A stretch of 45,588 nt of DNA from assembly GCA_007131175.1 (NCBI GenBank), contig SLRC01000130.1, positions 1 to 45,588 of the forward strand, in the 5' to 3' direction. Position 1 is the stretch's first letter. Each line of letters begins with the position of its first letter. The DNA is from Syntrophomonadaceae bacterium (GTDB lineage Bacteria; Bacillota; Dethiobacteria; DTU022; UBA8154). Below the pieces are notes generated by a model. The model ran no database searches. It was not told the origin of the DNA and was given only the letters and a program-made list of their open reading frames with translations. Made by a program: the position numbers and the translations under genes. This document shows, piece by piece, positions 3,629 through 31,238 of this stretch.

Positions 3629-4804
3629 CTATTCGTCGTTTCCTGAATCTCCTCTTCTTCTTCCTTTAAATTCAGCAAATTCTTTTTGGAAGAAATGACT
3701 GATCTTGGCACGTGCCTCCTCAATACCCCCGGTGCTGATAATCAAGTATAAGCCGGTAGCCAACAGGGCAATAAGGATTACCCAGAGTATGGTTCTAAGA
3801 GCGGTTCCTCCCACAGCTTCCTGGGCTCTTTGTGCTTCCGGACCCGCAAAGTAATAATTAACGGCATCGGCGAACAAGGCAACTGATTCTTCCGCACCTT
3901 CCCGTGTATTTTCGTGCGTGCCTACTTCCAACAACAGGGCAAGGGGGGTTATATCCTGGTTATAACTGCCCCGGGCCATAAATATTCCCTTGATCAAATC
4001 GGGATAAAGCTTATCGGTGGCATTTTTTAAGCTTTCGGCAAATTGGCGGTTAACCTCCACATTCTGGTTCTGGCGTCCTACTACAAATTGTATTTGGACG
4101 ATTTGATCATCATCCACAACAGCTTTGTACTCTTCAGCAGGCACGGCATCACGGTGAACATCGAAAAACACATTGGCATTATCTTGCATCAATTCCTCCA
4201 CGGTTCTCCGTGACCTGTTATATGCGCCGGCATCGTGGGGCACATGTGTTTCTGGGCTGTGTTTTACTTCAAGACCGTTTTCTTCCAGCGCTTCCACAAA
4301 AGCTTCTCCCACATCCAGGATTCCTCCGCCTTCAGGTATACTTTCAGTACCATCACTTGGCACATAGGACTCAGCACCATGAGAATGATAAACGGCTATT
4401 GTAAAATCACGATTTTCCGCCTGTGTCAATTGGGATAGCATGCCACTTTTAAAAATGCCCCCCAGTATGTCAGGGGGCTGGGAAAGGTCTATGTCACCAA
4501 GGGAACGGGCCCATGCAGTATTACCTTCCACCCTTTCCACAATGTAATGGGTATTATTGCCCGTAATATATTCATCATCCACATGGATCAAGCGGGCTGT
4601 CATCATGATCACACTTCCATCATCCACATCTTTCATTATAAAATATCCGGAGTCTGCACAGTGATCGTGAAATTCCAGGATTGTTTCTCCTTGCACTGCC
4701 TCGGCAGAGCAATCTGCTGTTATTGGAATTAACAAGAGAAATGTAAGGCACAGGATGGTACTTCCTAATAACCAGAGTAAATTTATATGTTTATTCACCT
4801 TCAT
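3629..4804 (-). CDS. spoIIP: Stage II sporulation protein P (SpoIIP)
   Basis: 391 residues from the ATG at 4804. An N-terminal membrane anchor (about residues 7-28) is followed by an extracytoplasmic amidase/endopeptidase domain. The motif AVYHSHGAESY carries the zinc-binding histidine, and VFFDVHRD and LLLEVGTHEN give further metal and catalytic residues. A second membrane segment lies near the C terminus (residues about 345-368). Known role: SpoIIP works with SpoIID and SpoIIM to thin septal peptidoglycan and drive forespore engulfment. Longer in-frame starts overlap the DUF1614 gene by more than 100 bases, so the start giving only a 14-base overlap is preferred. A second membrane segment is not standard for SpoIIP. 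Confidence 0.92.
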   Translation of the reverse strand: MKVNKHINLLWLLGSTILCLTFLLLIPITADCSAEAVQGETILEFHDHCADSGYFIMKDVDDGSVIMMTARLIHVDDEYITGNNTHYIVERVEGNTAWARSLGDIDLSQPPDILGGIFKSGMLSQLTQAENRDFTIAVYHSHGAESYVPSDGTESIPEGGGILDVGEAFVEALEENGLEVKHSPETHVPHDAGAYNRSRRTVEELMQDNANVFFDVHRDAVPAEEYKAVVDDDQIVQIQFVVGRQNQNVEVNRQFAESLKNATDKLYPDLIKGIFMARGSYNQDITPLALLLEVGTHENTREGAEESVALFADAVNYYFAGPEAQRAQEAVGGTALRTILWVILIALLATGLYLIISTGGIEEARAKISHFFQKEFAEFKGRRRGDSGNDE

Positions 4805-5477
4805 TTCCTTCTTCTTCCCTCCCTTTCCCTTTGTCATCTTCATCCATACCTTCCTCACTCCGTGTTTTAGCACCAAAAAAAGGGGCCAATCTTTCTGCAG
4901 TTTCACCAAATATTTCCGCAAGGCCCAATGCAATAAAACCGGAAATTACCACGGCATCAAAGAATCCTGCACCTCCGATTACGGTTGATGCAGTTACACC
5001 CATAAGGGAATTTTCCACGAAAGCAAGCAGGTCACTTAAAATAATCGCCATCACACCTGCGATAAATGCGCCTCTCCTGCTTCGCCCGGCCAGATATGCA
5101 ATCAGCCCGGCAACAATGGCAATGAGATAAAGGGGATCGATAAACAAATTATAGGTGGGTTCAAGTGGTAAAATTTTCATAGCGCCGTATGCTACAGCTG
5201 TGGCAATAAAGATAGCCAAAACAGTTCTGCCGATCTCCCAGCTTTCTGCTTTACTAAATAAATATCCCACCAAAATAAGTGGAATTAAACCCCCTCCAAT
5301 ATTAATACCGAAGTTAGCTCCCAGGGGGACGTCGGGTAAAAACCCCCCCAGCAACATGGCCACCAAAAAAAGAAGTGCTGCTTTATCACTTAAGCGAAGG
5401 CGGTCCAGGGCCCTTTCGGCAAAGCCGGCATAAACAATTACGGCAACCGCCAGGAGAATAATGATCCCCGTATTCAA
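4791..5477 (-). CDS. DUF1614 family integral membrane protein
   Basis: 228 residues with about six or seven hydrophobic segments and a highly charged tail (residues about 200-228, rich in E, G, K and D). It belongs to DUF1614, an uncharacterised membrane family common in Clostridia near sporulation genes. The start is a TTG 8 bases after an AGGGGG ribosome binding site. It is the first gene of an operon with spoIIP (14-base overlap), YIEGI and partners. A sporulation-sigma-like promoter lies 53 bases upstream. Function unknown; a membrane role during sporulation is inferred only from context. Confidence 0.8.
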   Translation of the reverse strand: MNTGIIILLAVAVIVYAGFAERALDRLRLSDKAALLFLVAMLLGGFLPDVPLGANFGINIGGGLIPLILVGYLFSKAESWEIGRTVLAIFIATAVAYGAMKILPLEPTYNLFIDPLYLIAIVAGLIAYLAGRSRRGAFIAGVMAIILSDLLAFVENSLMGVTASTVIGGAGFFDAVVISGFIALGLAEIFGETAERLAPFFGAKTRSEEGMDEDDKGKGREEEGNEGE

Positions 5478-5559: not shown

Positions 5560-5566
5560 GTCATGT

Positions 5567-5600
5567 AAAAACACATCCGCTTTTTACGCAGATGTGTTTT
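5567..5600 (-). terminator. Terminator of the aromatic amino acid operon
   Basis: Inverted repeat with arms AAAACACATCTGCG and CGGATGTGTTTT (one G-U/mismatch inside), 6-7 base loop, ending in a T-run on the minus strand. It begins 35 bases after the aroH stop. Confidence 0.85.
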
Positions 5601-5634
5601 TATACATAATCCCGCCATAACGGAGTCGAAATAT

Positions 5635-6018
5635 TTATAAAGTATCCAGCAAGTCCTCTCGCAGCTGTGCGGCACCGGACAGGTAGATGTGTTTTACCTG
5701 TTTTTGTGATTTTGATGTGTTTACCAACACAAGTACACGAATACAACGGGGTAAAGAGCCTGGAACGGCCATTTCAGTGGCGCACATCAGGGGAACATAC
5801 TGCCAGCCCAATTCACGTGCTGCCCTTGCTGGAAAAGCAGCGGTCAGGTCTGGTGTGGCAGTGAAAAGAATGGCACTAATATCTTCTTTGCAAATAGCGT
5901 TTTGATCTCTAATTTCCAGCAACAGTTTCTTTGTTGCTTCCACAATTTCTGTTTCATCATCGACAGGCACATCAATTGCTCCCCTAATCCCCCTTGCATT
6001 TCCCATTGGCTCAGGCAA
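5635..6018 (-). CDS. aroH: Monofunctional chorismate mutase, AroH class
   Basis: Converts chorismate to prephenate, the entry to phenylalanine and tyrosine. About 127 residues, the same size as Bacillus AroH. Landmarks are RGIRGAIDV with the catalytic arginine, FTATPDLTAAFPARAAR, GWQYVPL and CIRVLV with the second active-site arginine. The chosen start is a TTG at 6016-6018 lying about 10 bases after a GGAGGTG ribosome binding site within the end of aroQ. A longer reading starting at 6177 would overlap aroQ by 150 bases and has no family counterpart. It is the last gene of the aro operon and supplies prephenate to TyrA, encoded first in the same operon. Confidence 0.92.
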   Translation of the reverse strand: MPEPMGNARGIRGAIDVPVDDETEIVEATKKLLLEIRDQNAICKEDISAILFTATPDLTAAFPARAARELGWQYVPLMCATEMAVPGSLPRCIRVLVLVNTSKSQKQVKHIYLSGAAQLREDLLDTL

Positions 6019-6025
6019 GGTTGCT

Positions 6026-6478
6026 TCACCTCCAATATCCTTCAGCTGCCAGAGCTCCCAACGCAAGCAGATAACTGTATTTCCCCAGTCCGCTGATCTG
6101 GCCCAGCACAACCGGGGCAATAACGGAGTGATGGCGAAACTCTTCCCGGGCATATATGTTGGAGAGATGTACTTCAATGGCCGGCAAATCTACCGACGAC
6201 AGGGCATCACGCAGGGCAACGCTGTAGTGAGTCAGGGAAGCGGGGTTGATGACAATTCCCCTGTACTGTCCCGGGGCATTGTGAATTGCATTAATTATAT
6301 CCCCTTCGCTGTTTGACTGAAAACAATCTACCGAAACCTTGAGTCTTTTTGCCTCATCATAAATAATTTGATTCAGCTCATCCAAAGTTATGCTACCATA
6401 GATCTCCTTTTCCCTTGTTCCCAGTAAGTTAAGATTGGGACCGTGCAATACCAGGAATTTAATATCTCCAACAGCCAT
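6026..6478 (-). CDS. aroQ: Type II 3-dehydroquinate dehydratase
   Basis: 150 residues; dehydrates 3-dehydroquinate to 3-dehydroshikimate (third shikimate step), as a dodecamer in the cytoplasm. Visible family marks are HGPNLNLLGTRE with the loop arginine, NPASLTHYSVALRDA, and EVHLSNIYAREEFRHHS carrying the catalytic histidine region. It starts 4 bases after the aroE/K gene. Nothing in the active site appears altered. Confidence 0.96.
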   Translation of the reverse strand: MAVGDIKFLVLHGPNLNLLGTREKEIYGSITLDELNQIIYDEAKRLKVSVDCFQSNSEGDIINAIHNAPGQYRGIVINPASLTHYSVALRDALSSVDLPAIEVHLSNIYAREEFRHHSVIAPVVLGQISGLGKYSYLLALGALAAEGYWR

Positions 6479-6482
6479 TTAA

Positions 6483-7871
6483 TCACATCCTAAACTGTAA
6501 TAAATCAAATATTTCCTCCGCTACCCTGCGGGGAGTTTTCCCGTCAGTATTAATACAAAAATGGGCTTTCTGATAATAAGGTATCCTTTCCTGCAAAAGC
6601 TCACTAATTCTGGTTTCTGGATCTGTTACATCCAGCAGGGGGCGGTTTGCGTATTGCTGCAATCGTCGAAAGGCCTCTTTCGCTGAAACTTCAAGGTAAA
6701 TAACCAGACCACTTTCCAACATAACGGTCCTGTTTGCTTCCTGCAGCACTGCACCACCGCCGGTAGAGACCACACATTTATCCTGTGTTTGTAGTGCGAT
6801 CATTTTTATTACTTCCGCTTCTCTGCGGCGGAAATATTCCTCCCCCTTACTTTTAAATATTTCCGTAATTTCAGTGCCTTGTGCAGAGACAATTAACTCG
6901 TCACAATCATAAAATGATATGCCCAGCATTTTTGCCAAAACCCACCCTGTAGTGCTTTTACCAGAGCCCATAAATCCTGTGAGAAACACTTTAGCCCTAT
7001 TATCCATCTCTGACGATTCAGTAAGAGTTTTTTTCATCACTGCACGGGGTGCGCTGACCCCGGTAATAATTTCAAAAGTCCTAATCCCCTGCCCTAGCAA
7101 CATATCAAGTCCATTCACCGCTGGACGGCCACAAGATTTGGCTGCCTGCAAAAAAGTGGTGGTGGGTGGGATATAACGGAGATCAACAGCAGCATGAATA
7201 TGTTGCAGTGCCCCGGAGGTAATAATACCCATTTCCACCGGATCTGCACTGAGTGTGTTTATGAGCAGGGATTTTTTTGCAGCCAGGGAAACTTCATTGC
7301 TGTCTAAGTTGATAACCTCAACCTGTCCCCCTGAAAAAAACCCCTTATCACGAAGTTGCTTGACAAAAACCACAGCACGTTTCACGGTACGGTTTGCAAT
7401 TGTGATCTTTTTAATTCCAGAGCGGACAAGGGCCAGCACTACAGCACGGGCTGCACCTCCTGCTCCAAGCAGGACAGCTTTTTCATATGGAACAGTAAAA
7501 CCGTTCTCAAGCAGGTAAATAAACCCGTCCACATCTGTGTTATAACCGGAAAGTTTCCCCCCGTTGTTTTTAACAATATTTACTGCATTTAAGATAGTAG
7601 CATCGGTTGAAAGCTCATCTAAAATGTTGACTGCTGACTCCTTGTGTGGTGCAGTAATATTAACCCCTGCCATTCCCAGGGCCTTAATTGCCTGTATGGC
7701 TGCGGGGAGAGCTTCTTTGCTTATTTGAAAAGGCAGGTAACAATAATTCAACCCCAGTTCAAAAAAAGCAGTATTGTGCATCTTAGGAGAAAGGGAATGA
7801 ATTACCGGGTCACCAAAAAGACCCACGATATTTGTTTTACCGTTTATTCTTAGAACATGCGGGGGTATCAT
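6483..7871 (-). CDS. aroE-aroK: Shikimate dehydrogenase-shikimate kinase fusion
   Basis: 462 residues holding two consecutive steps of the pathway in one chain. Residues 1 to about 282 are AroE: substrate-binding SLSPKMHN, catalytic lysine 77 in NITAPHK, aspartate 113 in YNTDVDGF, and nucleotide-binding GAGGAAR at 136-142. Residues about 293-462 are AroK: P-loop GFMGSGKST at 299-307, DCDELI, FRRREAEV, STGGGAV and the lid arginine in NRPLL. The usual separate lengths are about 280 and 170, so both halves are complete. A start ATG at 7871 has an AAGGGG site 8 bases upstream. The fusion should pass shikimate directly between the domains; whether it channels is not shown. Confidence 0.96.
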   Translation of the reverse strand: MIPPHVLRINGKTNIVGLFGDPVIHSLSPKMHNTAFFELGLNYCYLPFQISKEALPAAIQAIKALGMAGVNITAPHKESAVNILDELSTDATILNAVNIVKNNGGKLSGYNTDVDGFIYLLENGFTVPYEKAVLLGAGGAARAVVLALVRSGIKKITIANRTVKRAVVFVKQLRDKGFFSGGQVEVINLDSNEVSLAAKKSLLINTLSADPVEMGIITSGALQHIHAAVDLRYIPPTTTFLQAAKSCGRPAVNGLDMLLGQGIRTFEIITGVSAPRAVMKKTLTESSEMDNRAKVFLTGFMGSGKSTTGWVLAKMLGISFYDCDELIVSAQGTEITEIFKSKGEEYFRRREAEVIKMIALQTQDKCVVSTGGGAVLQEANRTVMLESGLVIYLEVSAKEAFRRLQQYANRPLLDVTDPETRISELLQERIPYYQKAHFCINTDGKTPRRVAEEIFDLLQFRM

Positions 7872-7891
7872 ATTTAATCACCCCTTTACCG

Positions 7892-8995
7892 TTATTTATC
7901 CATAATATTCAAGCAATAAGCTATTGACTCATGGATCTTTTCCTGGGGCACCGACTTATAAAACCCAACTCTTCCCAAAGCTTCCGGTAAGACGAAGATT
8001 AATTCATTCCCTTCTTTCTTTTTATCATAGTAGAGTGCGTCTTTAACAAGAGCCGTGTTTAAAAACGGGGGTGGGGGTGGTGGGTTTAGCTTTTCCACAA
8101 GTTCAGCAATCCGCCTTGCAGTCTGACAATCCAGAATTCCCAGCTTTTCAGCCATCACTGTTGCCATTTGCATACCCACTGCCACTGCTTCACCATGCAG
8201 GTAATGCTTAAAACCGGTGGCCGCTTCCAAGGCATGGCCAAAAGTATGCCCTAAATTCAAAATACGCCTGTGAGCATGGTCTTTTGCATCACGGGCAACC
8301 ACCATACCCTTCAATTGGACGGTACGGGAAATAATGTAAATAAGTTCTCTGCCAGAGGGACGCTGCAAGTTAGTTTTTTCAAGAGCTTCCAAGCGGGAAA
8401 AAAGATTTGCATCTTTAATAACGCCGTATTTTATTACCTCGGCCATTCCGGCCCGCCATTCTCTGGGGGGCAATGTTTTTAAAAATGTCGTATCACTAAT
8501 CACAACAGAAGGATGATGGAAAGCGCCAATTAGGTTTTTGCCCAGGGGGTGGTTTACTGCTACTTTTCCTCCCACACTACTGTCCACCATTGCTAAAAGG
8601 GAGGTGGGTATCTGGACAAATGGTATCCCCCGCAGGTACGTTGCTGCCACAAAGCCGGCCAAATCTCCAATGACTCCGCCACCGAGGGCAATAATGGATG
8701 AATATCTGTCCAGTCCTGATTCAAGGGCTCTACGATAAAGCATATCTGCAAATGCAGGAGTTTTTATCTTTTCTCCCCCATCCAAAACTTTCAAATGGGG
8801 TTTAAAACCTCCTTTTTGCAGGTTGTGGCTTATTTTATTGTAATAAAAAAGCACATTTTGATCAGTGACAACCAAACAGGGACCTGGAGGTAATATTTCA
8901 CCCATCAGATGTCCAATATTTTGAGCGATGTTACGACCGATATAAACAGGATAACATGCCTTAGCCGCATCCGTTTGCAAGGTAATTTTAATCAT
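7892..8995 (-). CDS. aroB: 3-Dehydroquinate synthase
   Basis: 367 residues; NAD- and metal-dependent conversion of DAHP to 3-dehydroquinate. NAD-binding GGGVIGDLAGFVAATYLRG and the metal-ligand segment LNLGHTFGHALEA are intact. The start ATG (MIKITLQT) at 8995 follows a AAGGGAG ribosome binding site by about 10 bases; a longer reading to 9025 lacks such a site. A run of six prolines (residues about 315-320, KLNPPPPPPFL) replaces the usual short loop, made by a G-rich triplet stretch. It lies between aroC and aroE/K in the operon. Confidence 0.95.
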   Translation of the reverse strand: MIKITLQTDAAKACYPVYIGRNIAQNIGHLMGEILPPGPCLVVTDQNVLFYYNKISHNLQKGGFKPHLKVLDGGEKIKTPAFADMLYRRALESGLDRYSSIIALGGGVIGDLAGFVAATYLRGIPFVQIPTSLLAMVDSSVGGKVAVNHPLGKNLIGAFHHPSVVISDTTFLKTLPPREWRAGMAEVIKYGVIKDANLFSRLEALEKTNLQRPSGRELIYIISRTVQLKGMVVARDAKDHAHRRILNLGHTFGHALEAATGFKHYLHGEAVAVGMQMATVMAEKLGILDCQTARRIAELVEKLNPPPPPPFLNTALVKDALYYDKKKEGNELIFVLPEALGRVGFYKSVPQEKIHESIAYCLNIMDK

Positions 8996-9047
8996 CTTTA
9001 AAATCTCCCTTACTTTATATAACACACCATCTTAATCGGCATTATTC

Positions 9048-10214
9048 TTATTCGTTTGCCATGTAGGAGTCTCTGAGTTGAAGGTAGTGATGATAGGAGT
9101 GCTCCAGCTCAGCCAGGGAATCACCGGCAAACTTTTCACGAAAGGCCCGTGCTAACTCCCAGGCAACAGCCGCTTCTCCCACCACAGATGCTGCGGGTAC
9201 GGCACAAATATCTGAACGTTCCACGACGGCAGTAGTATTTTTTTGTTCTTCCAGGTCCACACTGGGAAGGGATTGCAGCAGTGTGGGGATGGGTTTCATA
9301 GCTGCACGCAGTACCAGATTTTCCCCGTTGCTAATACCCCCTTCAAGACCTCCCGCACGATTGGAAGTGCGTAAAATTTGCCCATTTTTAAGGGTAATAG
9401 GGTCGTGTACTTCCGAGCCCCTTTTGGCTGCTGCAGCAAAACCCAAACCAATTTCCACTCCCTTGATTCCGGGAATGCTCATAAGTGCAGCGGCAAGACA
9501 TCCATCAAGACGGCGATCCCAGTGGACATGGCTTCCCAGGCCCACTGGAAGACCGGAAACAGCAACCTCGAAAACTCCTCCCAGCGTATCGCCTTTTTCC
9601 CGCGCTTCGTCTATACGTTTACACATCAATTTTTCCGCTTCCCCGTCCAGGCAAAAGAGAAAAGAACGATTGGTCTTTTCACGTACTTCTTTCAGGGAAT
9701 CAATGTGGGGCAACTTTGCTGCCCATACATCCCCGATTGAAACAACATAAGAAACAACATCGATACTGAAAAAGGATAGCATTAAAGCAGCTACCGCACC
9801 TACAACTGTACGCATGGCCGTTTCTCTGGCACTGGCACGTTCCAGCACATTGCGCAGATCTTTATGCTGGTATTTTATTCCTCCCGCCAGATCTGCATGG
9901 CCGGGGCGCGGTCTTGTTATTGTCTTTTCTGGCGTTCTCGCTTCAATACACATTATTTCCTGCCAGTTTTCCCAGTCCCTGTTCTCCACAAGAAGGGTGA
10001 GGGGAGTACCCAGCGTCTTACCATGGCGGATACCAGAAAGGACTCGTACCTGATCTTTTTCAACAGTCATACGACCGCCACGCCCGTAACCTTGTTGCCG
10101 CCGTTTAAGCATACGATTAATGAATTCCGTGTCAAACTCCATTCCTGCCGGTAAACCCTCAATGATACCGACTAATGAAGGACCATGGGACTCACCTCCT
10201 GTTAAAAAGCGCAT
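9048..10214 (-). CDS. aroC: Chorismate synthase
   Basis: 388 residues; FMN-dependent trans-elimination of phosphate from EPSP to give chorismate. It starts [17 protein letters not shown], the standard N-terminal signature, and contains [21 protein letters not shown] and the C-terminal segment that binds FMN and EPSP ([17 protein letters not shown]). Start ATG after AAAGGGGGATGG. Its substrate would normally be made by AroA, whose gene immediately upstream is broken, so AroC depends on another EPSP synthase or is idle. Confidence 0.96.
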
Positions 10215-10248
10215 TTACCATCCCCCTTTAAAATAATTTAAAATATTT

Positions 10249-10838
10249 TTACACTTTCAATTCCGCAAGCGTTTTATAAAATTTGGGATAAGAGATATAC
10301 GTACATTCCGGATCTTCTATAATTGTTTCCCCATGGGCAAACAGTGCTGCAATGGCAAGGGACATGGTAATGCGATGGTCTCCATGGCTATGGCAGCGGG
10401 TGCCCGTAATATGGCAATTACCTTCAATGTTCAGTGCGTCCGCCTTTAAGACCGATTGACTTTTCACAAGCTGCTCGGCCAACGGCTCATGCCCGTATTT
10501 ACGTCTATTGGCTATAGCTATCTTTGCCCCCATCTTTGCAAGTATTTCCAAAAGACCGTTCCTTCCTGGATTCATTCCCACACCTTCCAGGAAAATCTCA
10601 GCCCTTTGGGCAAGAACTCCTGCTACCAGAAAATAATGAAGCAGCAGAAAAGTCGCCGGGAACCCTGATATTATTACCTTTCAGGATCTGTCTTCCCGGT
10701 AATGATGCTAAAAAAAGGTTGTCCTGACAGCATCATGCCCATCAAGCCCAGGATTAATGCCTGGTGGGAAACAGATTTTTCCCCTGGAACCTTGACCCTT
10801 CCATAAAGTCTCCTTCCCGGTGTAAACTTCATGTCCAT
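10249..10838 (-). pseudogene. aroA: Remnant of EPSP synthase gene (aroA) with three internal deletions and frameshifts
   Basis: About 590 bases remain of an expected 1290. From the ATG at 10838 (AAGGAG site 8 bases upstream) the reading gives MDMKFTPGRRLYGRVKVPGEK, then SVSHQALILG, which is the family N terminus. It jumps directly to GMMLSGQPFFSIITG, which normally lies near residue 95-110, and stops. Another frame resumes with IRVPGDFSAAS (normally near residue 227), shifts again to LVAGVLAQRAEIFLEGVG, and the last open part (10249-10581) runs from MNPGRNGLLEILAKMGA to SVLK. It then skips about 62 residues to ADALNIEG and SHGDHRITM. By comparison with Bacillus AroA about 62, 107 and 62 residues are missing. 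The active-site arginine after SVSH is also Q. The product cannot be functional. Confidence 0.93.
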
Positions 10839-10879
10839 ACTATAAACTCCTTTTCCTTTTCCAAGCCGAAACCCAGCTT

Positions 10880-11767
10880 TTATAAGTTCAACTGTTTACG
10901 CAAAGCTGCTGCCCGGCGTAATCTCCTTTTACTTTCAGTTTCGTCTTCTTGCTCCAGATAATTATACAGTAAATCTAATTCGTTCTGAAATTTATTTAAA
11001 AATTTTTTTAGATAAACCTTGTTGCTTAAAAATATATCATACCAAATGGATTCATCTCCCATGGCAATGCGGGTGGTATCCTTAAACCCATTGCCCACAA
11101 GGTTTCGAAGCAGATCATCATCCTCGTCACAGTGATGCAACATGGCGCTTAAGGCGGTTGCTACAAGATGAGGAAGATGGCTGAGCAAAGCCGCAAAATA
11201 ATCATGCTTATTCGCTTCCATGATAAAGGGACGGGCATGTATAACCCGAATCATTTTAATCATTTTTAATACCAAGCGGTGTGGGGTACTTTTAACTGGT
11301 GTTAAAATATAAACGGCGTTTTCCAGCAATTTAGAATCAGCAAAAGCTATGCCGGACTGCTCTGAACCGGCCATGGGATGACCTCCTATACCCCATATTT
11401 TTGCTGGCAGGTACTGATTCATGGCCCGGATAATTTCTTCCTTCGTACTACCGAGGTCCGTAACAAGTGTTCCAGGCTGCAGTTGAGGCCCAATGGACTG
11501 AAGGCATTTCAAGATACTGCGTACGGGCAAAGCCAGGATAACCAGTTCTGACCCGTCAAGACAGTGACAGAGGTCACCGGAATAATCAATGGCTCCCCGT
11601 TTCAGCGCCATTTTAGCAGTTTTTGGATTAATGTCGTAGCCCCAGCGATTCCGTACTGCCCCGTATTTCCCCAGGGCAATACCCATGGAGCCACCCATCA
11701 GGCCCATTCCCAGAATACAGCATTTGTTAAAAAGTGGTTTAGATAGACCGGTCAACGTCTTTTCCAC
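10880..11767 (-). CDS. tyrA: Prephenate dehydrogenase
   Basis: About 291-295 residues; oxidative decarboxylation of prephenate to 4-hydroxyphenylpyruvate, the tyrosine branch. The NAD-binding motif CILGMGLMGGSMG lies near residue 17, followed by VTDLGSTKEEI and the conserved GGHPMAGSEQSGI with the catalytic histidine; the C-terminal helical dimerisation domain is complete. Two starts are possible: the GTG at 11767, which overlaps the AAGGAG site, or a TTG at 11755 about 11 bases after it; the latter looks better placed. First gene after the T-box leader, so its position agrees with tyrosine control. Confidence 0.94.
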   Translation of the reverse strand: MEKTLTGLSKPLFNKCCILGMGLMGGSMGIALGKYGAVRNRWGYDINPKTAKMALKRGAIDYSGDLCHCLDGSELVILALPVRSILKCLQSIGPQLQPGTLVTDLGSTKEEIIRAMNQYLPAKIWGIGGHPMAGSEQSGIAFADSKLLENAVYILTPVKSTPHRLVLKMIKMIRVIHARPFIMEANKHDYFAALLSHLPHLVATALSAMLHHCDEDDDLLRNLVGNGFKDTTRIAMGDESIWYDIFLSNKVYLKKFLNKFQNELDLLYNYLEQEDETESKRRLRRAAALRKQLNL

Positions 11768-11820
11768 TCCTTCGCTTCAGCCGTCCTTTCTTCCTATTCT
11801 ATTTTTAGCAGATAAGTTAA

Positions 11821-11856
11821 ATAAAAAGCTTCCATCCCCTTAGGGACGGAAGCTTT
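11821..11856 (-). terminator. Intrinsic terminator of the T-box leader
   Basis: Arms AAGCTTCCGTCCC and GGGATGGAAGCTT with a 4-base loop and a following TTTTTATTT on the minus strand, directly after the T-box core. It is the off-state structure of the riboswitch. Confidence 0.92.
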
Positions 11857-12121
11857 AAGCTTCACGCGGTACCACCCTGGTTGAGCACAAAGTGCTCCCA
11901 TTTTTTGGGTACGTGCCGGCAGTCATGGGCATTATACCCCCTTCCTTTTAACGTTGGAAGTATCCGTCAGAGCCTACAGGCCTTGCCGGCTTTCGGTCTG
12001 CTGCTTTAGAGTGTATTTCCACGCACATTGACACCGGGTTTCACCGCCCCCCGGCTCTCTATAGTCAAGATGTATCGTGTACTTCTCCCTATCATCGCTT
12101 TTGCTTGTATTATTAGCTACA
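11821..12121 (-). promoter_or_regulatory. T-box leader, probably tyrosine-specific, controlling the tyrA-aro operon
   Basis: The minus strand carries the 14-base T-box core AGGGTGGTACCGCG (11865-11878), whose UGG sequence pairs with the acceptor end of uncharged tRNA. It is followed by a strong terminator that competes with the antiterminator. Upstream are typical stem I parts: GGGAGAAGTAC, AGAGAGCCGGG with GGTG and CCCGG, and the pair TTGAC/GTCAA. In the specifier region GGAAATACACTC, a UAC tyrosine codon (12013-12015) followed by A is the best reading. This fits tyrA as the first gene. AUA in another register cannot be excluded by eye. The mechanism is established for T-boxes: uncharged tRNA lets transcription continue. 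Confidence 0.93.
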
Positions 12122-12127
12122 AAGCCC

Positions 12128-12157
12128 ATTCTAAATGCGCTGCCGTATATTTGTCAA
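12128..12157 (-). promoter_or_regulatory. Sigma-A-type promoter of the T-box aro operon
   Basis: Minus strand: perfect -35 TTGACA (12152-12157), 18-base spacer, -10 TAGAAT (12128-12133). Transcription would begin near 12121, just before T-box stem I, and the promoter lies immediately after the ispH/S1 stop codon. Confidence 0.8.
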
Positions 12158-12174
12158 GGGAAATATAGCGCCAC

Positions 12175-14274
12175 TTATTCTTTCATTTCTTTATCATTAA
12201 ATAAATCACCAAACACATCCCCCAGAGTAACCCCCTGATTTTCCTCTTTCTGGGTTGATTGGACGGAAAAGTCACGTGGAGCGGGGCGGGCATCCTTAAT
12301 ACTGAGGCTGATTCGCTTATTATTCATGTTTGCATCAATTATTTTCACTTCTATTTCCTCACCTTCCTGGACAATCTCGGAGGGGTGTTTTACGTGAAAG
12401 TCTGCCATCTGAGATATGTGTACCAATCCTTCCACACCGGGTAGAAGCTCCACAAAAGCACCAAAGTTCACCACACGAGTGACTCTGCCTTTAACTATAT
12501 CCCCTGCGGCTAATTCCTGCTCCGCCACACTCCAGGGATCAGGTTGAGCCTGCCTAATACTCAGGCTGATTCGCTCCCTTTCCGGTATTACTTCAAGAAC
12601 TTTAACCGGAATTTCTTCCCCAACTTTTAGAACATCGCGGGGATGGCCAACCCTCTGCCAGGAGACCTCAGAAATATGAACAAGGCCGTCGATGTTGCCA
12701 ACATCCACAAAAGCACCAAAATCTGTGAGACGCTTTATCACACCGTTGATAACATCTCCTTCTTTAATTTTTTCGATGGTTTCCTGTTTTTTAACCTCCA
12801 ATTCATCTTCCAGGTATTGTTTGCGGGAGAGAATTACTTTATCACGTTCACGGTTCAGCTCAAGAACCTTAAATGTAAAGTTTTCGCCACGAAATTGTTC
12901 AAAATCAGGAATATAGCGAACATCCACAAGTGAGCCGGGCATAAAACCCTCCACGCCGCTACCCAAATCTATAATAATTCCCCTGGGAACAACATTCTTC
13001 ACAAACCCCTGCATGTTTGTACTAGCTTCCATCGCTTCCTCCAGCTCTTTCCAGCGACGCTCCCGCTGCAAACGCTTGCTTGAAACAATGATTTTGTCGT
13101 CCTGTTCTACAATTTTTAAAACGAGTACATCAATAGGATCTCCTGCGCTAAGCTGTTCTTTTAAAGAATTATCCCCTCCCAGAAATACCTCCCCCCGGGG
13201 CAGAAAAGCTTCCGTTTTATAACCAATATCGATCAAGGCCTGCTCATCATCGACCATGACGACCGTGCCGGTTACAATATCCCCAGGCCGGTACTCTTTA
13301 ACCTCATCCTGGACTGACATTACTTCTTCCTGAGAAATTTCATCGCTTTGGCTTGTAGGTTCATCCTGTGGGGATGCTGTTACTTCTTCCTGTGTTGAAT
13401 TTTTTTCATCCTCTTCTAATTGTTCCTGTTCCATCTTTTCCATTTCTTCCATCTTCTCTTTGACCTCCTTAATCTTCCAGTGGGGAGTTGATGCTCCAGC
13501 AGTTATCCCCAAATTTTCAACGCCTGTCAGCCAGTCCCGACTAATATCTTCTGCAGCAGTTACCTGGTAGGTTGTTGTTATTTCCTGGCAGACTTGTGTC
13601 AGCTTTCGGGTGTTGGAACTATTTTTATCCCCCACCACTATCATCAAATCCACCAAAGCTGCCAGAGTAGCTGAAGCTTCCTGGCGCAGGGCGGTCGCCC
13701 CGCAAATAGTCCGGATAATTTTTAAGTCGGGGCATTGTTCTTTAAGCTTTTCCGCAAGTTCTAAGAAATATTTTTCCCGTTGCGTGGTTTGTGATAACAA
13801 TACTGTTTTTGGGGAGAGAAGCAAAAATATTTCCTCATTATCTTTGTCCGGCTCAACTACCCTTGCCCCTCCTTTAGCCCATCCTAAAAGGGCTTGTACT
13901 TCCGGATGCTGATAATCTCCGTAAATTATAATATCATGCCCTTTTTGTGAAGCGTTGCGGACAATTTTCTGTACCCTGCGTACATAAGGGCATGTAGCAT
14001 CGATTACCTCCAGATCCTCCCTTTCCTGTAAATATTTAAGGACATCCGGAGTTACGCCGTGAGTGCGAATCACAACCGTTCCCCCAGGCAATGCCTGGGG
14101 TGTTTTTACAACTGAAACATTTTGGGATTCAAGATATTGCTGCACATCTTCGTTGTGTACCAATGGCCCCAGAGTAGATACCCTTTTGCCCGTACCAACC
14201 TGTGCCAGGGTCATGTCAATTGCATTCCGCACACCATTACAGTAACCTGCATGATCTGCCAGAAATACCGGCAT
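12175..14274 (-). CDS. ispH-rpsA: Fusion of IspH (HMBPP reductase) and ribosomal protein S1-like domains
   Basis: 699 residues. Residues 1 to about 270 are IspH, the iron-sulfur enzyme of the last MEP isoprenoid step; the cluster ligands C12 (AGYCNGV), C95 (DATCPYVRR) and C191 (CGATALRQ) and the HPEV motif are present. An acidic, glutamate-rich linker (about 275-327) follows. Then come four S1 RNA-binding repeats at about 329-402, 415-483, 500-571 and 587-658, of which the last two have the classic GAFVxxxxxxxGLVHIS core. Such fusions are known in Clostridia, where the S1 part stands in for a separate S1-like protein. Third gene of the cmk-plsC-ispH/S1 unit. Confidence 0.96.
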   Translation of the reverse strand: MPVFLADHAGYCNGVRNAIDMTLAQVGTGKRVSTLGPLVHNEDVQQYLESQNVSVVKTPQALPGGTVVIRTHGVTPDVLKYLQEREDLEVIDATCPYVRRVQKIVRNASQKGHDIIIYGDYQHPEVQALLGWAKGGARVVEPDKDNEEIFLLLSPKTVLLSQTTQREKYFLELAEKLKEQCPDLKIIRTICGATALRQEASATLAALVDLMIVVGDKNSSNTRKLTQVCQEITTTYQVTAAEDISRDWLTGVENLGITAGASTPHWKIKEVKEKMEEMEKMEQEQLEEDEKNSTQEEVTASPQDEPTSQSDEISQEEVMSVQDEVKEYRPGDIVTGTVVMVDDEQALIDIGYKTEAFLPRGEVFLGGDNSLKEQLSAGDPIDVLVLKIVEQDDKIIVSSKRLQRERRWKELEEAMEASTNMQGFVKNVVPRGIIIDLGSGVEGFMPGSLVDVRYIPDFEQFRGENFTFKVLELNRERDKVILSRKQYLEDELEVKKQETIEKIKEGDVINGVIKRLTDFGAFVDVGNIDGLVHISEVSWQRVGHPRDVLKVGEEIPVKVLEVIPERERISLSIRQAQPDPWSVAEQELAAGDIVKGRVTRVVNFGAFVELLPGVEGLVHISQMADFHVKHPSEIVQEGEEIEVKIIDANMNNKRISLSIKDARPAPRDFSVQSTQKEENQGVTLGDVFGDLFNDKEMKE

Positions 14275-31148: not shown

Positions 31149-31175
31149 AAAAATGCACACCTCTTGTGCATTTTC
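31149..31175 (-). terminator. Terminator of the spoIIA operon
   Basis: Ten-base perfect arms AAAATGCACA and TGTGCATTTT with a 5-base loop and a following T on the minus strand, 64 bases after the sigF stop. AT-rich, so moderate strength. Confidence 0.6.
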
Positions 31176-31238
31176 ATTTATCTGATGGTGCCGCTGTTAT
31201 TGGGGCGGCATGGCCGTCTGCCCTTTAATATTCTGCTC

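Follow-up and report, generated by a model that had tools for sequence, protein, structure and literature searches.

A relic of aroA in an otherwise intact, T-box-led shikimate operon and its probable replacement by a second EPSP synthase

Background

The question raised by this locus is whether the EPSP-synthase gene (aroA) of a shikimate operon is truly dead and, if it is, where the cell obtains its EPSP. The locus lies in a contig of a Syntrophomonadaceae bacterium (SLRC01000130.1, assembly GCA_007131175.1, referred to here as G000), and the window is the whole stretch of 45,588 nucleotides that was analyzed. The original prediction, made from the sequence of the window, described aroA as a pseudogene inside an otherwise complete operon and offered uptake of aromatic amino acids, a replacement enzyme or a second aroA as possible reasons for its loss. 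We followed this up with a comparison of 23 genomes of the family.

Incomplete shikimate pathways have been described in 11% of 147 free-living bacteria, mostly one or two enzymes short (Zucko et al. 2010, PMC3018139). The present case is like those in that one enzyme is absent from an otherwise complete set, but here the relic is visible in place and the family comparison offers a reason for the loss. Our literature search found nothing on point for shikimate operons that contain an aroA pseudogene, for control of aroA by a T-box or for AroA pseudoenzymes.

Lesion map of the aroA remnant

The remnant was mapped by reading the three frames of the minus strand and aligning them to the intact operonic AroA of relatives, which gave the following pieces:

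10838-10249, minus strand: aroA remnant as a whole, an EPSP-synthase gene broken into five pieces that occupy three different frames
10743-10838, minus strand: piece 1, N terminus, frame 0, reading GEKSVSHQ (K22 and S23 kept, R27Q)
10677-10742, minus strand: piece 2 (LSGQPFFSIITGK; MGMMLSGQPFFSIITGKTDPER), frame 0, past a gap of ~66 codons and terminating in stops
10631-10678, minus strand: piece 3 (NNIRVPGDFSAAS), shifted frame, past a gap of ~106 codons
10429-10632, minus strand: piece 4 (FLVAG...EPLAEQLVKSQSVLK), third frame and thus the second frame change
10249-10428, minus strand: piece 5 (SHGDHRI...), C terminus, past a gap of ~63 codons that took DEIP and KETDR

The codons absent relative to the 424-residue AroA of G014 number ~66, ~106 and ~63 by alignment, so that the 62, 107 and 62 missing residues counted by the original prediction were right within a few residues; its two frame shifts and its glutamine in place of the arginine following SVSH were likewise found, and the alignment with intact relatives that it had proposed is the source of the five-piece map. 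That last position of the GEKSVSH- motif is arginine in every intact homologue compared. The first frame runs for 54 codons before it meets a stop, no open piece is longer than 110 codons (10581-10249), and the single open frame of about 420 codons that would be typical of an EPSP synthase is lacking.

The identity of the remnant is clear in spite of this damage. Piece 4 is 48% identical to the AroA of G005 (E = 5e-16), a profile search matched the C-terminal part to PF00275 with E = 9e-14, and the AroA of a relative, used as query, recovered the middle at 5e-16 and the C-terminal part at 7e-13; these values place the assignment far above chance. The remnant shares its site, its motif order and its C-terminal similarity with the EPSP synthases (AroA, PF00275/TIGR01356) of other tyrA-aroA-aroC-aroB operons, and intact orthologues occupy the matching operon position in G001, G004, G009, G010 and G014. 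It differs from them in having lost over half of its codons, in its two frame changes and in falling far below the family cut-off, the longest frame reaching 67 bits in NCBIfam TIGR01356 (the aroA equivalog), for which 287 are required.

We take the active site of EPSP synthase to comprise, in E. coli numbering, K22, S23, R27, N94-T97, R100, R124, S169-Q171, D313, K340/E341/R344 and H385/R386. In the remnant R27 is replaced by Q, the segments holding N94-R100, R124, S169-Q171, D313 and K340-R344 are deleted, and the motifs NSGTTAR, RxRPM, SAQ, DEIP and KETDR are all absent. This loss of the catalytic motifs rules out, as far as sequence can tell, that the remnant works as an EPSP synthase, and such activity is not to be expected from it.

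Loss of constraint

The pieces that remain have also ceased to be conserved. Of 47 columns in which 25 intact AroA sequences do not vary, the remnant is changed at 8; leaving out each intact AroA in turn as a control gave 0-2 changes for the intact genes. In matched trees we related the G000 tip length to the remaining tree and obtained 0.525 for the aroA remnant, compared with 0.206 for TyrA, 0.224 for AroC and 0.267 for AroB, which corresponds to an evolution ~2.3x faster than that of the operon neighbors. Relatives hold an intact full-length aroA between tyrA and aroC, and the same shortened gene under selection was absent from the close relatives tested, which had either full-length aroA or other types of loss. 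A conserved, compact short gene was ruled out because the relatives carry full-length aroA or differing relics. We thus confirm, at the level of lesions and substitutions, the prediction of a pseudogene: what is left of the operonic EPSP-synthase gene is a genuine relic, predicted to be catalytically dead, that decayed selectively among intact neighbors.

The remainder of the operon

The other features of the operon are:

11839-12104, minus strand: T-box leader (RF00230) at the operon head, 112.7 bits against a gathering score of 93
10880-11767, minus strand: tyrA, prephenate dehydrogenase, intact (PF02153 and PF20463)
9048-10214, minus strand: aroC, chorismate synthase, intact (PF01264 over residues 1-357, 393 bits)
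7892-9025, minus strand: aroB, 3-dehydroquinate synthase, intact (PF01761 and PF24621)
6483-7871, minus strand: aroE-aroK fused frame, shikimate dehydrogenase and shikimate kinase (PF08501, PF18317 and PF01202 in one frame of 462 residues)
6026-6478, minus strand: aroQ, type II dehydroquinase, intact (PF01220)
5635-6177, minus strand: aroH, AroH-class chorismate mutase (PF07736 at frame residues 62-176)

With the aroH domain starting near 5994, translation probably begins inside the listed frame. The Pfam matches uphold the prediction that all the flanking genes are intact, with the refinement that aroE and aroK form one fused frame, and the leader upholds that of a T-box-led operon. It carries the antiterminator GGGUGGUACCGCG and a UAC specifier for tyrosine (specifier loop GAAA-UAC-A). 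Tyrosine T-box leaders of this family (RF00230) stand at the head of the window's operon and of those of relatives, and also precede several orphan aroA genes. In several relatives aroF lies between the T-box and the remaining operon, but in the window the T-box leads straight to tyrA; the genes at L081:1287-2300 and L020:6225-7238 are such aroF-type DAHP synthases, and the aroF of the window's genome sits with pheA on contig C193. As both of these are intact, aroA is the sole missing step of the main pathway. The window tyrA is 46-56% identical to that of relatives.

A second X-aroQ-aroEK-aroB stretch is present in the bin on contig C30 (L141, 3866 bases), which ends inside aroB. Its aroB is ~73% identical to that of the window and aroH was not seen on it; C30 may represent a congener contaminating the bin or a duplicated segment or second operon. 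The fusion of aroE and aroK is found in the window and on C30 (L141:1413-2867), and relatives such as G015 and G007 have a stop or frame change between the two genes.

Comparison of the window with C30 gave dN/dS values of ~0.12 for aroB, ~0.18 for aroEK and ~0.15 for aroQ, which are rough as the synonymous sites are near saturation, and relative-rate counts over conserved columns that are balanced (10:11, 8:9, 11:14 and 12:7). The operon genes other than aroA show 0 lesions in about 1790 codons, where simple Poisson reasoning at the lesion density of aroA would predict ~21. Decay of the whole operon was ruled out by the intact frames, the low dN/dS and the balanced relative rates.

aroA genes across the family

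The AroA sequences of the family fall into two clades of ancient paralogues, of which clade B (16 sequences) has a support of 100/100. Clade A consists of the operon copies of G001, G004, G009, G010, G012 and G014, and clade B contains orphan copies at varied places together with the operon copies of G006, G011, G017 and G020. The remnant could be assigned to neither with certainty, since its branch (1.05) is too long for a sure position in the tree. Directly upstream of five orphan aroA genes (L015, L017, L019, L023 and L025) lies a T-box that reaches the gathering score, and a T-box antiterminator motif lies upstream of four more (L016, L021, L093 and L094).

Loss of aroA from the operon has occurred elsewhere in the family. 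The operonic aroA of G005 is a stub of 47 codons that overlaps the end of tyrA, G007 and G015 have no aroA between their tyrA and aroC genes, and in G019 it is missing together with tyrA. Each of these four genomes retains a clade B AroA of full length in which the catalytic residues are kept (4/4). This pattern shows that the operonic aroA can be lost where there is a second copy, and the simplest view is that the window adds one more such case. The situation resembles pseudogenes that arise from divergent loss of duplicated genes, with two paralogue clades of which either copy has been lost or altered according to lineage; it differs in that the surviving copy of G000 would lie outside its incomplete assembly.

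The tryptophan branch appears to be lost patchily across the family, as judged from gene content: no TrpE/PabB-type enzyme was found in the near-complete genomes G011, G017, G006, G019 and G010, and the shikimate-operon genes are kept there.

Source of EPSP in the window's organism

The genome search that the original prediction had called for was carried out. The assembly of G000 is a MAG of 219 contigs and 76.9% completeness, and in it the PF00275 profile and the AroA of a relative (E up to 10) match the remnant and, apart from it, only two MurA genes. These two intact proteins of PF00275 were rejected as AroA because they score 535-544 bits with TIGR01072 (MurA), which is above its cut-off, and only 64-83 bits with the aroA model, which is below that of aroA. 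The proposed second aroA is found in 4/4 relatives without an operonic aroA and is not found in the G000 assembly. The original prediction made an interruption of the pathway at step six depend on the lack of another aroA; the assembly has none, but given its incompleteness we judge such an interruption unlikely in the organism.

In our view the operonic aroA, a dead relic, decayed under continued selection on the rest of the operon probably because a second AroA was present in the same cell, encoded in an unassembled part of the genome. By analogy with the four relatives, another AroA would supply the conversion of S3P and PEP to EPSP; the operonic aroA would then be free to decay, and the remaining operon genes would stay under selection. 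One candidate for the replacement is an orphan clade B aroA, which in this family often stands alone behind its own T-box leader. The other is an aroA belonging to a second shikimate operon, of which the truncated stretch on C30 would be an example. Either would be located in the ~23% of the genome outside the assembly. Counting against this explanation, 9-12 of 17 active-site residues are lost in the clade B copies seen in the window's genus (G001, G003 twice and G004), so that an intact clade B gene in G000 is not guaranteed and the second operon is an equal candidate.

The pathway may instead be truly cut; the cell would then import aromatic amino acids or products of the chorismate pathway, and the remaining genes would have stayed intact only owing to the short time since the loss. 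We consider this unlikely, even though the remnant and the two MurA genes are the only matches in the assembly and no TrpE/PabB chorismate-binding enzyme (PF00425) was found in G000, the presence of which is patchy in the family. The assembly of G003, the closest relative by IspH, is 88% complete and shows neither aroC nor aroB, and all of its AroA are altered in the active site; this counts against a second AroA and would also fit an erosion of the pathway in the lineage. With at least five lesions and many substitutions in the aroA remnant, however, its loss is not very recent, and the ~1790 other operon codons are free of lesions. The uptake option is further disfavored by aroB, aroE-K and aroQ, which experience strong purifying selection and evolve no faster than their counterparts in the sister operon of C30. 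From general pathway knowledge, no use of aroC and tyrA is known in the absence of EPSP. Aromatic auxotrophy in G000 is unproven.

It is very improbable that another enolpyruvyl transferase makes EPSP, for example either MurA protein or an AroA-like enzyme whose active site has been remodelled. The MurA of the liverwort Marchantia does make EPSP from S3P and PEP (PMC11588093) and G000 has two MurA genes, but both are ordinary by the bit scores given above and their number is not above that of relatives with a working aroA. We give hardly any weight to an assembly or binning artefact, in which the organism would have an undamaged gene or the window would be a mixture of strains. The fragmentation of the MAG and the presence in the bin of the 73%-similar operon piece C30 speak for it. 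Substitutions at invariant residues within the retained pieces, though, are not what deletions made by an assembler alone would leave, the flanks are intact, G005 has a different relic at the equivalent operon position, and the bin lacks a sister copy of the neighboring 20 kb.

Site and origin of the operon

The features that define the site of the operon are:

5561-12186, minus strand: operon-sized block without counterpart in G003, G004, G006 and G010, where ispH-S1 and the DUF1614 gene lie without it
12175-14274: ispH-S1 flank
4791-5477: DUF1614 gene flank

By blastn the flanks are collinear and the operon is absent in L130, L131, L135 and L136. With the site empty in these four genomes, the operon of the window lies at an unusual site, which it shares with C30. 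The window falls outside the other family members in the AroC tree, and in the AroB tree it forms with C30 a long stem apart from the window's genus; both trees suggest that the operon may be of separate origin or have been transferred within the family. At the empty site of G004 there is a 33-base hairpin that is 94% identical to the T-box terminator of the window and is possibly a scar. Elsewhere in the window (31154-31224) there is a short hairpin-forming sequence with ~20 copies in the genome at 78-93% identity and a folding z-score of -3.7, which looks like a small dispersed element.

Altered AroA paralogues

The family comparison also brought to light a set of AroA proteins with replaced active sites:

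L015:1126-2418, L016:239-1534, L017:2107-3387, L019:8574-9869 and L027:7538-8833: AroA paralogues of full length, each carrying replacements at 9-12 of 17 active-site residues

These clade B proteins belong to G001, G003 (two copies) and G004, all of the window's genus, and to G010. K22 is changed in every one of the five, and the active-site columns are hit more often than equally invariant other columns when compared with an intact clade B protein (p = 5e-5 to 6e-4). All five frames are open over ~425 codons, the pairwise dN/dS is ~0.07-0.23 where computable, as would be expected of a protein conserved without catalytic function, and a T-box or T-box antiterminator motif precedes four of them. 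In G001, G004 and G010 the altered copy coexists with an intact operonic aroA and therefore need not make EPSP; the other two are in G003, where the operon was not seen in the 88% complete assembly.

From these patterns it is conceivable, at somewhat less than even chances, that the altered AroA is a dead EPSP-synthase paralogue kept as a pseudoenzyme with a new non-catalytic role, usually behind a T-box leader of its own, in two genera, one of them that of the window. The window's species has lost the working operonic copy too, and EPSP would need a non-canonical source there if the unassembled part of the genome contained no other aroA; this last step is much less likely than the pseudoenzyme reading. 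The altered paralogues are a more novel lead than the remnant, which is a case of ordinary gene decay.

Implications

Where a MAG is incomplete, one broken gene is unsafe ground for calling aromatic auxotrophy. Pathway reconstruction would also be misled by the altered AroA proteins that pass the annotation cut-off for aroA, as three of the five score above the NCBIfam value. The family offers natural cases in which an essential gene is lost from its operon and a second copy carries on.
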